This document shows positions 3,301-38,825 of a stretch of DNA of 64,000 nt, one piece after another. The notes under the pieces are model-generated. The model saw only the letters and a program-made list of their open reading frames with translations, was not told the DNA's origin and ran no database searches. The stretch is taken from assembly GCA_003134995.1 (NCBI GenBank), contig PLDC01000017.1, positions 170,283-234,282 of the forward strand, read 5' to 3'. Source of the stretch: Acidobacteriaceae bacterium. GTDB taxonomy: Bacteria > Acidobacteriota > Terriglobia > Terriglobales > Acidobacteriaceae. The number at the start of each line of letters is the position of its first letter. Position 1 is the first letter of the stretch. The translations under genes and the position numbers were made by a program.

Positions 3301-6300
3301 GTGAAATTGACGATGAAACCCAATCGCGCTGTACAGACTTTCTTGATCTGGCTGCTCTGCGTACTTACCTGCGAGACGGCTTTCGCTCAAAGGCGTGACC
3401 GAACAATCTCCCAGTTCCAACATACGAGCTGGACTGCCAGGGAGGGTGCCCCAAGTCCGATTTACGCTCTCGCCCAGACAACGGACGGCTATCTGTGGAT
3501 GGCAACGCCGGCTGGTCTCTATCGTTTCGATGGAGTCCGCTTCGAGCGCTACAAACCCTCGTCCGGCCAGGAATTCAGGTCGGACAATTTATCGTGTTTG
3601 ACGGCGACATCGGATGGTGGACTGTGGATCGGCTTTCGGTACGGCGGCATAGATCTCTTGAAGAATGGGCGAATCACCGGCTACGGCGACCGTGACGGGT
3701 TGCCCCAAGGGACCATCTACAGCGTAGTGACGGATAAAGATGGTACGGTTTGGGCCGCGGCCAGCCTGGGTTTAGCCAGGCTCGACGGTTCACACTGGCA
3801 ACCTATTGGGAAAAACGCGGGATACCTCGGGCAGTCCGCCTTGTCTCTGCTTGTGGATCGCGCGGGGACGCTTTGGGTTGCGTCAGAAGACGCTCTCTTC
3901 TTTCTCACTCGAGGGGCTAAGGTTTTTACGAGAAGCGCCGACCACTTGGGCCGAGTTGTTTCTATCGCTCAGCCTCCCGATGACGCATTGTGGTTGTCGG
4001 AACTGAACAGCGGCGACTCTCTCCGGGATTGGACGGCTCGCGCGGTGCGGCCCATGACTGTCTCACACACGGGAGACGGGAAAGCGGTCTCGCAAATTTT
4101 AGGAATCGAGGCTGTTGTTTCGGCAATATTCGACCACACAGGCAGCCTGTGGATTAGCAGCGACGATGGCGTGTTCCGCGTGCCTTATCCAGAGCGTCTC
4201 GCGAAGAACAGGCCGGTGCGCTTCAATGAACACATCTTCGAGAGGTTTACCGAAAGGGATGGATTAACAGCCGATATCGCAGGCGCTGGACCAATGATCG
4301 AGGACCGCGACGGAAATGTCTGGGTTGGCACCACCCGTGGATTGGACCGTTTCCGCGAAGCGAACGTGGTGCCCATTGCCCCGTTTGCCCCCGATGCTCC
4401 ATTGGTGGCAGGCGAAACTGACGCCTGGGCTACCACCACAGTGGCCCTCAAGCACTACCTGGTGCATCTTCAGAAAACAACTGCAACTCTCCAGCCGTTC
4501 GACGGGGAAGCGACCGCCGCGACGCATAGCGCAGATGGGGTCATATGGCTGGGAGGGCCGGGGAAGTTGTGGCGCTATGCAAACGGGCAGATGGCCAATA
4601 TTCCCTTCCCCGATGGGGTCGACAAGCGAATGGATGTTCAGGCAATCGCTGCGAGCCGGTCGGGAGACTTCTGGGCATCGATCATGCAAGCGGGGATGTA
4701 CCGCCGCATAAATGCGTCTTGGATACATAACGGAAACCTGCCCGCACTGCCCAAGGAAATCGCAGTTTCGCTGTTCGCCGACTCATCTGGCAGGACGTGG
4801 TTGGGATACATGGGGAAGAAGATGGCCCTCGTTGACGGAGATAGAGTTAGAACCTTCTCTTCCGCAGACGGCCTGCAGGTAGTGAATGTGCAGGCGATTT
4901 CCGAGCACGCCGGACACGTCTGGGTCGGAGGCGAACGCGGGCTGTCGCTTTTTATAGATGACCGTTTCCAATCGTTCACGGCCGATGATAGCGATCTGTT
5001 TCGTGGAATATCGGGAATCGTTGAAACCAGGGACGGCGATCTGTGGTTGAATTCGGTGCCTGGAATCATCCGCATTCCTGCGGCGGAAATCAGGCGGGCG
5101 ATTGAGACCCCTGGCTATCGCGTGCACTGCGAACTCTTCGATTTTCAGGAGGGCCTCATCGGAACGGCTCCGCAGCTCCGGCCCATCCCAACCCTGGTGT
5201 CTAGCTCGGACGGACGATTGTGGTTTTCCACCACCCAAGGCATCGTTCAGATCGATCCGAATCATCTCTTACGGAACACGATTCCCCCTTCGGTTTCTAT
5301 TCGAGAAGTTGATTCCGGAGGCGTAGTGTATGCCGCGCCAGGGGACGTGAACCTGCCACTGCGGACAAGCCGCGCACACATTGAATACACCGCCCCAAAT
5401 CTATCGGTGCCGGGACGAGTCCGTTTTCGATACCTGCTCGACGGGGTCGACAAGGACTGGCAAGATGCGGGAAGCCGCCGCGAAGCGTTTTACACGAACC
5501 TCCGCCCTCGCCGCTATCGTTTCCGTGTAATCGCCTGCAACGAAGATGGTGTTTGGAGCGATGTAGGCGCTGTCGTAGATTTCAGCATCGCGCCCGCATG
5601 GTACCAGACGAATTGGTTTCGTCTCCTGTGCGCGGTTTCCGTGTTACTTGTCGTTTGGGTGATCTATCGATTGCGAGTGCGGCAGATTGCTAAAGCCATG
5701 AGCGCCCGCTTCGATGAGCGCTTGCATGAGCGGACTCGCATGGCGCGAGACCTTCATGACACGTTTCTGCAAACCATCCAGGGCAGCAAGCTGGTTGCCG
5801 ATGATGCGCTGGACCCGTCTACTGATCCCGCCCGCATGCGTCGAGCCATGGAACAGTTATCAGTCTGGTTGGGACGTGCAACAGAGGAGGGTCGTGCAGC
5901 TCTGAACTCTTTGCGTACTTCAACCACAGAAAAAAACGACCTCGCTGCAGCTTTTCGGCGGGCGATGGAGGAGTGCCGCATACATACCTCCATGGAAGCC
6001 TCTCTGTCTGTGGTCGGTGAGGCGCGCGAGATGCACCCTATTGTTCGCGATGAGGTCTATCGCGTCGGCTACGAGGCAATCCGCAACGCGTGCGTGCACT
6101 CGCAAGCCAGCCAAATGCGGGTCGAACTCACTTACGACCACGACCTCGCCTTGCGCGTTAGCGACAATGGCGTTGGCGTGGACCCTGCGGTTGCCGATCG
6201 TGGCAGGGAGGAACACTTCGGTCTGCAGGGAATGCGGGAGCGGGCCGCCCGCATCGTGGGCAAGCTTACGCTCGTAAGCTCTGCGTCCTCCGGGACGGAG

Positions 6301-6429: not shown

Positions 6430-6522
6430 CGTTGAAACCGGGGACGGCGATCTGTGGTTGAATTCGGTGCCTGGAATCATCCGAATTCCTGCGGCGGAAA
6501 TCAGGCGGGCGATTGAGACCCC
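6430..6522 (+). repeat. Partial duplicate of the upstream sensor-kinase gene
   Basis: These 93 bp match 5019-5111, inside the propeller part of the sensor kinase, with two mismatches and no gaps. Homology stops abruptly at 6522, where a tlpA-like fragment begins in a different frame. The copy has no start codon context and is not part of an open gene. It looks like a short templated insertion left by a recombination or repair event. Confidence 0.9.
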
Positions 6523-35582: not shown

Positions 35583-36761
35583 TTAAGGCTGTGTTACCGC
35601 ATTCTGCTCACGAGTGACCGCCGTCTGCGCGAGAAGCCTGCCGTTTGACGACGCTCCCGTCTTCATGGCGATCATCGTCTTAGACAGTATGACTCCCTCA
35701 GCCTTCGCAGTCGTTCCGATGGAAACAGCGCCGGATGTCTGCCAAAAAATGTTCTTCGACACAGCCCCGCCAGCCAGGATCATCTTCGTTGCGCTGGCCT
35801 GGGTAAGTTGTCCCTCGATCTGGAAGATCCACACTGCGTCGGCTCCCCCTGACAGCGTGACATCCGTCGAGACCAAAACACTGGTAGTCCATTTGTAGAG
35901 GCCGGGAACCAGGGTTAGCCCGCCAATCTGTCCAGCTCCCAGGTTCGTAAAATTAGGATTCGATCGCCCCGCGGCGTTCGTGTAGGCGGTTTGCATGTTG
36001 GCTACCGCCGTTGTCAGTAAAGTTGGGTCAGTCACCCGGCAAGGAAGCGGCCCCGCCGCATTCACGCTATAAATTGTCCCTGTCACTTCTGTGCACTCCA
36101 GGTGAATGGCAGCCCCGGTAATCGGACTGGCTCCCACGTCCCCGGCGATAGTGGATGGATAAACGTCGGTCACTCCCGACTTGGTCAGAATAGCGAAAAG
36201 GCCTGCATCTCCCAGGGCCACCGGTGCCTGGCCCGTAAGCGCGACGGCGTTGGTCGTGAAGCTCCAAGCAATGGGATGGGCCATTGCAACGCCAGCTGCG
36301 TTCCTCGCCGACGTCGTAATCGCGGCGGTATATCTGGTATTGAGCTTCAGCGCGGACAAGCTGGGCGTAAAGGTTGCGACTGTCTTCGCCTCATTCATGG
36401 CGACGGTACCGGCTACGTCGTTTCCGGTTGTCTCTTTCACCGTGAACGTGGACAAGTTTTCCGCTGAGGACGAATTAAGCGTTGCCGCGTCCATGGGTTC
36501 GTTGAAGGTTGCGGTTACCACAGTGCCGGTCACGACGTTCTCACTGGAGTTTTTGCTGGTCGGTGCCTTCGTGGCCCAGTTACTTGGGCTTGACGAAATC
36601 ACCGTGGGTTCTGTAGCTGCGCCGTCGAACGTTCCGGGAGCGACGGTAACGCTTGGATCAACGGCAGCAAAAATCGTTTTAACTCCGGCAACTGCCGTCA
36701 AACAGACGAATAGCAGCGCCATAAACAGACGTAGTTTGTGCGAGGTTTCGAATAGGGTCAT
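35583..36761 (-). CDS. Ice-binding-like (DUF3494) protein with Ig-like BIG_5 domain
   Basis: The 392-residue secreted protein has a signal anchor (about 8-32), a bacterial Ig-like BIG_5 domain (about 50-172; VVTATFNEPMDAATLN, ATFTPSLSALKLNTRYTAAITTSA) and a DUF3494 beta-helix (about 182-392). The beta-helix has LGDAGLFAILTKSGVT, GDVGASP, GGLTLVPGLYKW, DAVWIFQI and FWQTSGAVSIG. DUF3494 includes proven ice-binding proteins that inhibit recrystallisation, but many soil relatives have not been tested and may be adhesins. The single BIG_5 module suggests surface display. No sortase or PEP-CTERM signal is present. Confidence 0.85.
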   Translation of the reverse strand: MTLFETSHKLRLFMALLFVCLTAVAGVKTIFAAVDPSVTVAPGTFDGAATEPTVISSSPSNWATKAPTSKNSSENVVTGTVVTATFNEPMDAATLNSSSAENLSTFTVKETTGNDVAGTVAMNEAKTVATFTPSLSALKLNTRYTAAITTSARNAAGVAMAHPIAWSFTTNAVALTGQAPVALGDAGLFAILTKSGVTDVYPSTIAGDVGASPITGAAIHLECTEVTGTIYSVNAAGPLPCRVTDPTLLTTAVANMQTAYTNAAGRSNPNFTNLGAGQIGGLTLVPGLYKWTTSVLVSTDVTLSGGADAVWIFQIEGQLTQASATKMILAGGAVSKNIFWQTSGAVSIGTTAKAEGVILSKTMIAMKTGASSNGRLLAQTAVTREQNAVTQP

Positions 36762-36951: not shown

Positions 36952-37200
36952 TTCGCGCTCGCGGCGGAATGAAATTCGGTGGTTCAGCCGCGAAGCGGCG
37001 CCAGAATGCAGCCCACGGCGCAAGCCGTGGGTAGAATGTGGGAAATGAGCAAGCCCCGAAGAGAGTGCGTGCAAACTAGATTCGCGCTCGTGGAGGAACG
37101 AAGCTGAGGATTCAGCCGCAAAGCGGCGACAGAATGCAGCCCACGGCGTCAGCCGTGGGTAGAATGTAGGAGATTAGCAAGCCCCGAAGGGGCGGAAGGT
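36952..37200. repeat. Two ~130-bp direct repeats, each a series of hairpins
   Basis: The two units start at 36952 and 37081, a period of about 128-129 bp. Each holds gccgc-loop-gcggc (36987-36999; 37115-37127), an 8-bp stem cccacggc/gccgtggg with a 4-nt loop (37012-37031; 37140-37159), and gcccc-gaa-ggggc (intact at 37181-37193, decayed at 37053). Loops differ between copies (gcaa against gtca) while the 8-bp stem is kept. They resemble REP/MITE-like hairpin repeats scattered in acidobacterial genomes. No RAYT transposase is in the window. Confidence 0.85.
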
Positions 37201-37255
37201 CAGTTCTCACCCACACTCTTCTGGGGCGATACTCATGAGCCCCGGACGTAAGAGT

Positions 37256-37410
37256 CTGTTACGAAACTCGATTGCGATTCCGCAATGTGGAACAATCCGT
37301 GCTCCAGTCGCGAAAGCGACGGCATGCGAAAGCCCGGCACGGCAGTGCCGGGAAAGCGGAAGTGGAACAAACCGAGTCCGCTTCAGCGGACGGCACGAGT
37401 TTCGTAACAG
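37256..37410. repeat. 155-bp multi-hairpin element closed by a 15-bp inverted repeat
   Basis: A perfect 15-bp terminal inverted repeat, CTGTTACGAAACTCG (37256-37270) and its complement (37396-37410), encloses four perfect hairpins. They are attgcg/cgcaat (37271-37286), gtcgc-gaaa-gcgac with a GNRA loop (37307-37320), cccggcac-ggca-gtgccggg (37333-37352) and gtccgc-ttca-gcggac (37376-37391). The whole can fold as a closed multi-branch structure on either strand. It could be a non-autonomous mobile element or a structured RNA. It contains no coding frame that I trust. Confidence 0.75.
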
Positions 37411-37527
37411 TCGTAAGTCCCGAATCACGCGGGAGACGGAGAGAGTCCCCGAAAGGGACGGCGCCAGTTCTAACTCACTCTGGATAACTGCGGGCTTCGA
37501 ACGCTACAATCATCACGGTCACTCACC

Positions 37528-37872
37528 ATGCCTTCCACCAAGAAAAGCACCATCCCCGCCGACAAACTATCCCAATACGAAACTCTCCTCTCCACCAACC
37601 ACATCGAACGCAAAGGCGACGTCCACCCCTACACCTCGCTCAACGGACACATGGCCACCTACCTCGACCAAACCGGAGTAATGGGCCTGCGCCTACCGAA
37701 AGAAGAAGTAGAAAAGTTCCTGAAAAAATACAACACCACCCTCTTCAAATCCTACGGAGTGATCAAGAAAGACTACGTAACCGTCCCCGACAAACTATTA
37801 GCAAACACAAAAGAGCTAAAAAAGTACCTGGAAATAAGCCACGAATACGTAAAAAACCTAAAATCAAAATAG
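37528..37872 (+). CDS. Small TfoX-like hypothetical protein
   Basis: The 114-residue basic protein has the pattern KGDVHPYTSLNGHMATYL...GLRLPKEEVEKFLKKY...YGVIKKDYVTVPDKLL and a C-terminal helix ending YVKNLKSK. The order (short strand with N-G-H-M, then L-R-L-P and a helix) resembles the TfoX N-terminal/YjbR fold, but membership is tentative. Codon use differs from its neighbours, with many aaa/aac/aca codons in the last third. A second, truncated copy of its N-terminal part lies at 38753-38825 beyond a toxin-antitoxin pair. Confidence 0.6.
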   Translation: MPSTKKSTIPADKLSQYETLLSTNHIERKGDVHPYTSLNGHMATYLDQTGVMGLRLPKEEVEKFLKKYNTTLFKSYGVIKKDYVTVPDKLLANTKELKKYLEISHEYVKNLKSK

Positions 37873-38094: not shown

Positions 38095-38400
38095 TCAATG
38101 CGCACCCTCGCGATCCGGCTCAAAGCGGATGCGCAAACGCGTGCGCGTGGCCTTGGCGAAACGTTCCAGCGTGCGCGTCGATGGCAGAACCTTCCCACTC
38201 TCGAGGCGCGCAACCACTGCCTGGGTCGTCCCCATCGCTTCGGCCACTTGCTCTTGCGTCATATCCGCCCTGCCCCTCGCCTCGATCAGAGCCGAGGCCA
38301 GCCCAAATTCCTCCGCCAGCGACTCATACGCAGCCACGTATTTTGGATCTTTCTTCCACCGCTTGAAGGACTCTTCCACCGGAATAAACTTACGCTTCAT
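38095..38400 (-). CDS. XRE-family antitoxin (HigA-like)
   Basis: The 101-residue protein has a helix-turn-helix in its centre (about 47-95; MTQEQVAEAMGTTQAVVARLESGKVLPSTRTLERFAKA) and an N-terminal helical extension. The ATG overlaps the toxin stop codon in ATGA (38397-38400). In this toxin-first arrangement the antitoxin normally binds its own promoter upstream of the toxin gene. The family assignment is clear and the HigA label is by arrangement. Confidence 0.88.
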   Translation of the reverse strand: MKRKFIPVEESFKRWKKDPKYVAAYESLAEEFGLASALIEARGRADMTQEQVAEAMGTTQAVVARLESGKVLPSTRTLERFAKATRTRLRIRFEPDREGAH

Positions 38401-38720
38401 GACACCTCCTGTGCCTGTTTGAGGGCCTTTATGATCTCCCGCCGTGGCGTCTTCTGCGTTTTCTTTTCAAACACGTGGACCACAACCACGCGCTTACCCA
38501 CAGCCGTTACGTAAACAGCACGGGCGATTCCGCTCCTGCCCTTCATGCGCATTTCCCAGAGCGGACCCTCCAAATGCTTCACATAAGGCTCGCGCACACG
38601 TTCCAACCCGTGTGCCTGAATCAACTCCACAATGCGCTGAAAGCTGGCTCGAATATCCAGAGGAAACGCATCCAGCGATGCCTTCACCTCCTCATTCAAG
38701 AATTCAACGGCCCACGACAT
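38397..38720 (-). CDS. HigB/RelE-superfamily toxin (Gp49-like)
   Basis: The 107-residue protein matches phage-derived Gp49-like/HigB toxins: VEFLNEEVKASLDAFPLDIRASFQRIVELI, then VKHLEGPLWEMRMKGRSGIARAVYVTAVGKRVVVVHVFEKKTQKTP. These fold like RelE and are expected to cut mRNA on the ribosome. It lies upstream of, and overlaps by 4 nt, the XRE antitoxin. The pair sits between a gene and its own truncated copy. Confidence 0.9.
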   Translation of the reverse strand: MSWAVEFLNEEVKASLDAFPLDIRASFQRIVELIQAHGLERVREPYVKHLEGPLWEMRMKGRSGIARAVYVTAVGKRVVVVHVFEKKTQKTPRREIIKALKQAQEVS

Positions 38721-38752: not shown

Positions 38753-38825
38753 GCAAAGGCGACGTCCACCCCTACACCTCGCTGAACGGACACATGTTCA
38801 CCCATCTGGATCAAACAGGAAGGTA
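38753..38825 (+). pseudogene. Truncated second copy of the TfoX-like gene
   Basis: The frame reads KGDVHPYTSLNGHM, then FTHLDQTGR and a stop. At DNA level it is nearly identical to 37610-37657 and then diverges. Only about 24 codons are left, with no start and no C-terminal part. It is a fragment from a duplication that now brackets the HigBA-like pair. Confidence 0.8.

Follow-up and report, generated by a model that had tools for sequence, protein, structure and literature searches.

A probable IS1182-type MITE built around an Acido-Lenti-1 core and lodged in a similar repeat hairpin of an acidobacterial genome

The IS1182-family element IS1272/TnSha1 carries terminal inverted repeats and inserts into hairpins, often those of terminators, regardless of their sequence (PMC5678879; PMC4923244). 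IS1272 deletes the target stem-loop on insertion and makes no duplication (PMC5678879; PMC4923244); in a hypothetical pathway, drawn as pathway c, joining at the 5′ edges of two loops would duplicate the loop only (PMC5678879). A MITE with 18-bp IS1182-like ends, direct repeats and a long stem-loop fold, MITEPye1, is described from Paracoccus yeei (PMC11578231). Two further lines of work concern repeats of the kind discussed here. Acido-Lenti-1 has been described as a candidate structured RNA (PMC2864571), and the Acidobacteria contain TIRtrons (TIRYT genes), in which tyrosine transposase genes lie between inverted, partly double-palindromic repeats, some of which are repeat families, Koribacter included (PMC3733652). 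Insertion into REP sequences has been reported for IS elements of the IS3, IS110, IS4, IS256 and IS5 families, with IS1182 unmentioned (PMC1525189).

The element described here is located in a 64-kb stretch of the genome of a soil acidobacterium (Acidobacteriaceae), referred to as the window (Table 1). A first-pass annotation made from the sequence had placed a multi-hairpin element at 37256-37410; the ends determined by comparison with full copies lie slightly beyond these coordinates, and the right end is 2 bp short of CAGACTC. The 15-bp arms and the four hairpins were all found exactly where that annotation had put them. The arms form a perfect inverted repeat with 125 nt between them, the sole perfect 15-bp inverted pair in the window at a gap of 200 or less, and no such pair arose in ten versions of the window generated with a first-order Markov model. 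The predicted RNA fold reaches -80.4 kcal/mol, against -48.8 +/- 3.7 for shuffled sequences (z = -8.5). Several mechanical open reading frames run across the element with no recognisable gene among them; with 161 bp and no transposase gene, it has the make-up of a MITE. There is a strong case for a mobile element: the suggestion that it is a non-autonomous one is well supported by its dispersed copies, by the terminal inverted repeats that it shares with the IS1182 family and by a flanking direct repeat.

Table 1. Positions of the element, of its parts and of related features (single positions and ranges refer to the window unless a contig is named).
Feature	Position	Strand	Basis or remark
Host hairpin, left stem, CCCCGGAC	37240..37247		sequence
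Left copy of loop, GTAA	37248..37251		identical to 37413-37416; predicted loop of the intact host hairpin
Whole MITE, 161 bp (GAGTCTGTTACG ... CGTAACAGTC)	37252..37412	+	comparison with full copies L002, L003, L111, L043 and others
Left terminal inverted repeat, 15 bp, CTGTTACGAAACTCG	37256..37270	+	sequence
Hairpin 0, TTGCG-attc-CGCAA	37272-37285	+	sequence
Hairpin 1, GTCGC-gaaa-GCGAC	37308-37321	+	sequence
Hairpin 2, CCCGGCAC-ggca-GTGCCGGG	37333-37352	+	sequence
Hairpin 3, GTCCGC-ttca-GCGGAC	37376-37391	+	sequence
Right terminal inverted repeat, 15 bp, CGAGTTTCGTAACAG	37396..37410	+	sequence
Right copy of loop, GTAA	37413..37416		sequence
Remnant of host right stem, GTCC	37417..37420		first 4 bases of right stem kept
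Acido-Lenti-1 (RF01687) match spanning hairpins 1 and 2	37306..37352	-	43.6 bits; gathering score 37
Neighbouring Acido-Lenti-1 copy	36986..37031	-	52.2 bits
Neighbouring Acido-Lenti-1 copy	37114..37159	-	54.2 bits; belongs to a 79-nt direct repeat whose other unit, 91% identical, is 36983-37061
Full copies, own genome	C29:65862 (92%); C19:205612 (87%); C9:459008-459172		DNA search
Right-hand partial copy, own genome	C27:237268		DNA search
Y1 loci flanked by Acido-Lenti-1	L377, L380, L381, L388, L390, L394, L396, L397, others; G000:C23:636616-636945

A DNA search of the genome to which the window belongs (G000, 5.62 Mb) identified four full copies including that of the window, together with many shorter hairpin cores that have no arms. 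Among 61 genomes searched, full copies are confined to the same genus. They are most numerous in G015, where matches to the full-element model include degenerate ones without arms, so that only the approximately 15 strong ones are counted; others occur in G001, G010, G019, G025, G061 and further genomes, and one member of the genus, G066, corresponds to the MAG Candidatus Sulfotelmatobacter sp. In an alignment of 19 full copies, the outer arms and the hairpin core are conserved and the stretch from the left arm to the core is variable. The outer part of the left arm, GTTACGAAAC, is conserved in these 19 copies and is also present at the ends of IS1182-family elements. The first-pass annotation had let its reading stand or fall with the existence of further copies and the conservation of the arms in relatives; both were looked for and both were found.

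The ends link the MITE to complete insertion sequences. The sequence (C/G)AG(T/G)CTGTTACGAAAC, or a close form of it, delimits complete IS1182-type elements of approximately 1.5 kb at loci L212-L218, complete insertion sequences also have AGNCTGTTACGAAAC, or a sequence close to it, at their ends, and the GTTACGAAAC core with the preceding AGNCTG is common to the window MITE and complete IS1182-type elements among L212-L218. The element L205/L212 of G066 is 1.49 kb long and has a frameshifted transposase; its protein, a frameshifted fragment, matches the NCBIfam IS1182 transposase at 1e-65, below the curated cut-off for the full protein, and carries the Pfam DUF772 and DDE_Tnp domains. An intact transposase of 444 aa is encoded by L215, from Terracidiphilus. 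In G001, the same end sequence is located where contigs stop, the pattern that a collapsed multicopy IS should give, and a search of the G001 contigs found these ends but no IS body. The tie between transposase and MITE rests on shared ends and domains, and mobilisation by an IS1182 transposase is predicted from them. The genome of the window gave no match to PF13751, and its terminal-inverted-repeat matches included no pair enclosing a gene; judged by this one domain model, the copies there appear now to be stranded, with no detectable transposase of IS1182 type.

The window reads CCCCGGAC-GTAA-[GAGTCTG...CAGTC]-GTAA-GTCC, in which the square brackets enclose the element. Removal of the element and one GTAA leaves CCCCGGAC-GTAA-GTCC, and GTAA is the loop of the hairpin GGAC-GTAA-GTCC; the target-site duplication that had been proposed for a search is GTAA on each side. 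The uninterrupted form, CCCCGGAC-GTAA-GTCCGGGG, occurs at four other places in the same genome, inside Acido-Lenti-1-type repeats. The core of the MITE itself comprises three REP-like hairpins (Acido-Lenti-1). We consider it probable that the element is an IS1182-type MITE whose core is Acido-Lenti-1 and which sits in the loop of another repeat hairpin of the same type, with that loop duplicated. The idea of a recombination target, also raised in the first-pass annotation, fits the hairpin that hosts the element rather than the element itself. Because the right end is short by 2 bp and the right stem of the host is largely lost, the repeat of the window copy is only 4 bp (6 bp with the closing pair).

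Sister sites display the same arrangement. The C9 copy lies in CCCACGGC-GTGA-GCCGTGGG with GTGA on both sides, a copy in G025 lies in CCCTTCGC-AAAGAAC-GCGAAG with AAAGAAC on both sides, and the flanking repeats of IS copies are TTTTG (L215), TCGC (L216) and CTTACC (L218); where MITE and IS copies are located in well-kept hairpins, the direct repeats are 4-7 bp long and equal to the loop. At 16/30 sites the elements were directly flanked by an exact direct repeat (3 bp or longer), compared with 2.8% of 870 cross-paired flanks; at 10/30 sites, compared with 0/870, a stem of 4 bp or more adjoined this repeat directly. Three end pairs from G001 had been joined by flanks matched by eye, and were dropped from the main statistic because they had been chosen by flank matching; 13/27 and 7/27 sites, respectively, are then left. 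A later set of 20 weaker family members, in which small offsets were allowed and shells with other end sequences were included, gave 3/20 against 1/380 cross pairs. DNA folding of 11 reconstructed empty hairpins placed the predicted loop precisely on the repeat in nine; in the other two, with 3-nt loops, the repeat equals the loop plus the closing pair, the loop being one base shorter on each side. The empty hairpins found are paralogous only, from the same genome. No orthologous empty site was found in the three closest species that share the downstream 114-aa gene, which have no shared upstream spacer. In many older copies the repeat is absent or degenerate (L002, L102, L129, L161, L214), and L213, with a perfect palindrome at both ends, lacks a repeat and resembles an IS1272-type replacement. 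Shells with other ends (AGTCTGTGTC..., AGTGTGCGTGAGAAC...) around the same core were also observed, at L105, L366, L370 and L373, in hairpins with the loop duplicated.

A simpler account would treat the element as an ordinary IS1182-type MITE with a short target duplication and a preference for palindromic, terminator-like sites, so that repeat and loop would agree only as a side effect of insertion at the centre of short palindromes. Proteobacterial relatives (~42% identity; L228-L290) are in keeping with it, because they mostly have GGCC on both sides, at the centre of a short dyad, a target that is seemingly sequence-specific rather than loop-measured. The loop-duplication test was passed by 1/31 of them, so that loop duplication is not general in the family. 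We nevertheless regard this account as unlikely for the acidobacterial sites, since a fixed length would not yield the repeats of 4, 4, 4, 5, 5, 6 and 7 bp seen at the seven clearest of them, each exactly abutting the stem.

On the preferred reading of a MITE inserted in a duplicated loop, its landing exactly in a hairpin loop, with two copies of that loop flanking it, suggests that the borrowed transposase finds its targets by folded shape, a mechanism that we infer from the flanking sequences. The target palindrome would be extruded, either into a cruciform or, on single-stranded DNA, into a hairpin. In each strand the transposase would join the ends of the element to the loop at its 5′ edge, and gap repair would then copy exactly the loop, so that the target rather than the enzyme would determine how long the duplication is. 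This length is normally held to be a fixed trait of a transposase, and here it is apparently dictated by the loop of the target. If so, these sites would provide natural evidence for a loop-duplicating pathway that exists for IS1272 only as a sketch, and the true substrate would seem to be a cruciform or hairpin. The "sRNA" of Rfam would be recast as a transposase-linked repeat, and the nested repeat cluster would be explained by one mobile element within another. A wider model, put forward tentatively, is that one lineage of IS1182 transposases measures target shape at the stem-loop boundary of an extruded hairpin, of whatever sequence, with a duplication equal to the loop and variable in length, and that REP-like hairpin cores spread by Y1 transposases serve both as landing sites and as MITE cargo, with two unrelated transposition systems feeding each other. 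A search of the open-access literature revealed no earlier description of direct repeats whose length depends on that of the loop.

Acido-Lenti-1 is found beside Y1 tyrosine transposase genes. A copy is present no more than 300 bp from the domain in 20/29 strong Y1 loci, often on each side and in inverted orientation, in contrast to 1/11 IS1182-type transposase loci with a copy within 300 bp; this adjacency holds for the Acido-Lenti-1 core as a family and not for the window copy itself. In the sequences read, the terminal GTAG tetranucleotide by which GTAG-type REP/RAYT elements are recognised is absent, and TGCC precedes the hairpins on the reverse strand. The flanking of Y1 genes makes Acido-Lenti-1 REP-like or, by the usage of PMC3733652, TIRtron-like, and suggests a transposase-linked repeat where an "sRNA" family had been listed; that the TIRtron repeats are Acido-Lenti-1 is a guess. 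With eight Y1 genes in the genome of the window and Acido-Lenti-1 beside Y1 genes in the genus, the element might itself owe its mobility to the Y1 (RAYT-like) tyrosine transposases associated with Acido-Lenti-1, its arms being incidental. This is quite improbable, because the arms match IS1182-type ends and mark the boundary in the 19 aligned copies, and because direct repeats flank the element; Y1 transposition is not expected to leave such repeats.

The proposal of a structured RNA in the first-pass annotation holds in part: the core matches Acido-Lenti-1 of Rfam, which appears here as a repeat tied to tyrosine transposase genes. Taken as a whole, the element might be a trans-acting sRNA of this family with an extra closing helix, as the Rfam match, the low folding energy and the base changes could suggest. 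Two-sided changes affect 6/32 pairs over the 19 copies, a number reached in 0/500 shuffles, although relatedness can account for part of this signal; 92.9% of cells are paired. Hairpin 0 is kept nowhere but in 3/4 copies of the genome of the window, one of the three with a two-sided change; hairpin 1 has a two-sided C-G to U-A change in 3/19 copies, hairpin 2 has 96% of cells paired and two-sided changes at two pairs, and hairpin 3 is almost invariant. The outer arm pairs well, but most G015 copies do not pair in the inner stretch of the closing helix (column pair 22-163 broken, 13/19). Matching changes in both arms are as compatible with the recognition of DNA ends as with a helix and hence do not decide for RNA. 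The broken inner helix, the Y1 genes flanked by Acido-Lenti-1 and a copy number that differs widely among the species of a single genus (0 to at least 83 per genome) make an sRNA very improbable. A chance product of local GC-rich repeats, in a region that is full of hairpin repeats, is ruled out for practical purposes by the full copies elsewhere with conserved ends and by the Markov windows. The core of an integron attC site is GTTRRRY, and the arm sequence GTTACGA does not fit it; this candidate was rejected.

The element lies between an ice-binding gene and the 114-aa gene, with two Acido-Lenti-1 copies just upstream. The earlier view that its own terminal arms set it apart does not hold, because the neighbouring repeats are also bounded by arms, imperfect ones of a different type (AGTGTGCGTGAGAAC-like), at 37062-37076, 37201-37217 and 37467-37481; thus, a second arm-bounded element may enclose the present one. 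Ice-binding-like and bacterial Ig-like domains are encoded by the gene at 35583-36761 (minus strand). Part of the 114-aa gene (37610-37677) recurs, with a broken frame, at 38753-38820 (88%), beyond a pair of minus-strand HTH_3 and Gp49-like genes (38095-38400 and 38397-38720) that overlap by a few bases and resemble a HigBA-type toxin-antitoxin pair. Elsewhere in the window, a 93-nt direct repeat (5019-5111 and 6430-6522) has two copies that are 98% identical and lie 1411 bases apart.

Set beside the described systems, the element shares insertion into palindromic repeats with the REP-targeting IS elements, which belong to families other than IS1182 (PMC1525189). Its core passes the gathering threshold of Acido-Lenti-1, which Rfam lists as an sRNA and which is here bounded by IS1182-type ends; the TIRtron paper makes no mention of Rfam (PMC3733652). 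MITEPye1 is likewise short and gene-less, with IS1182-family-like ends and flanking direct repeats, but is from another host group, and the accessible text of its report gives no hairpin-loop target rule or REP-like core (PMC11578231). IS1272 also inserts at hairpins; it removes the stem-loop, whereas at the window element and its sister sites the stem is retained and the loop is present twice. As far as can be read from their sequences, the sites described here look like the loop-only pathway drawn for IS1272 (PMC5678879).
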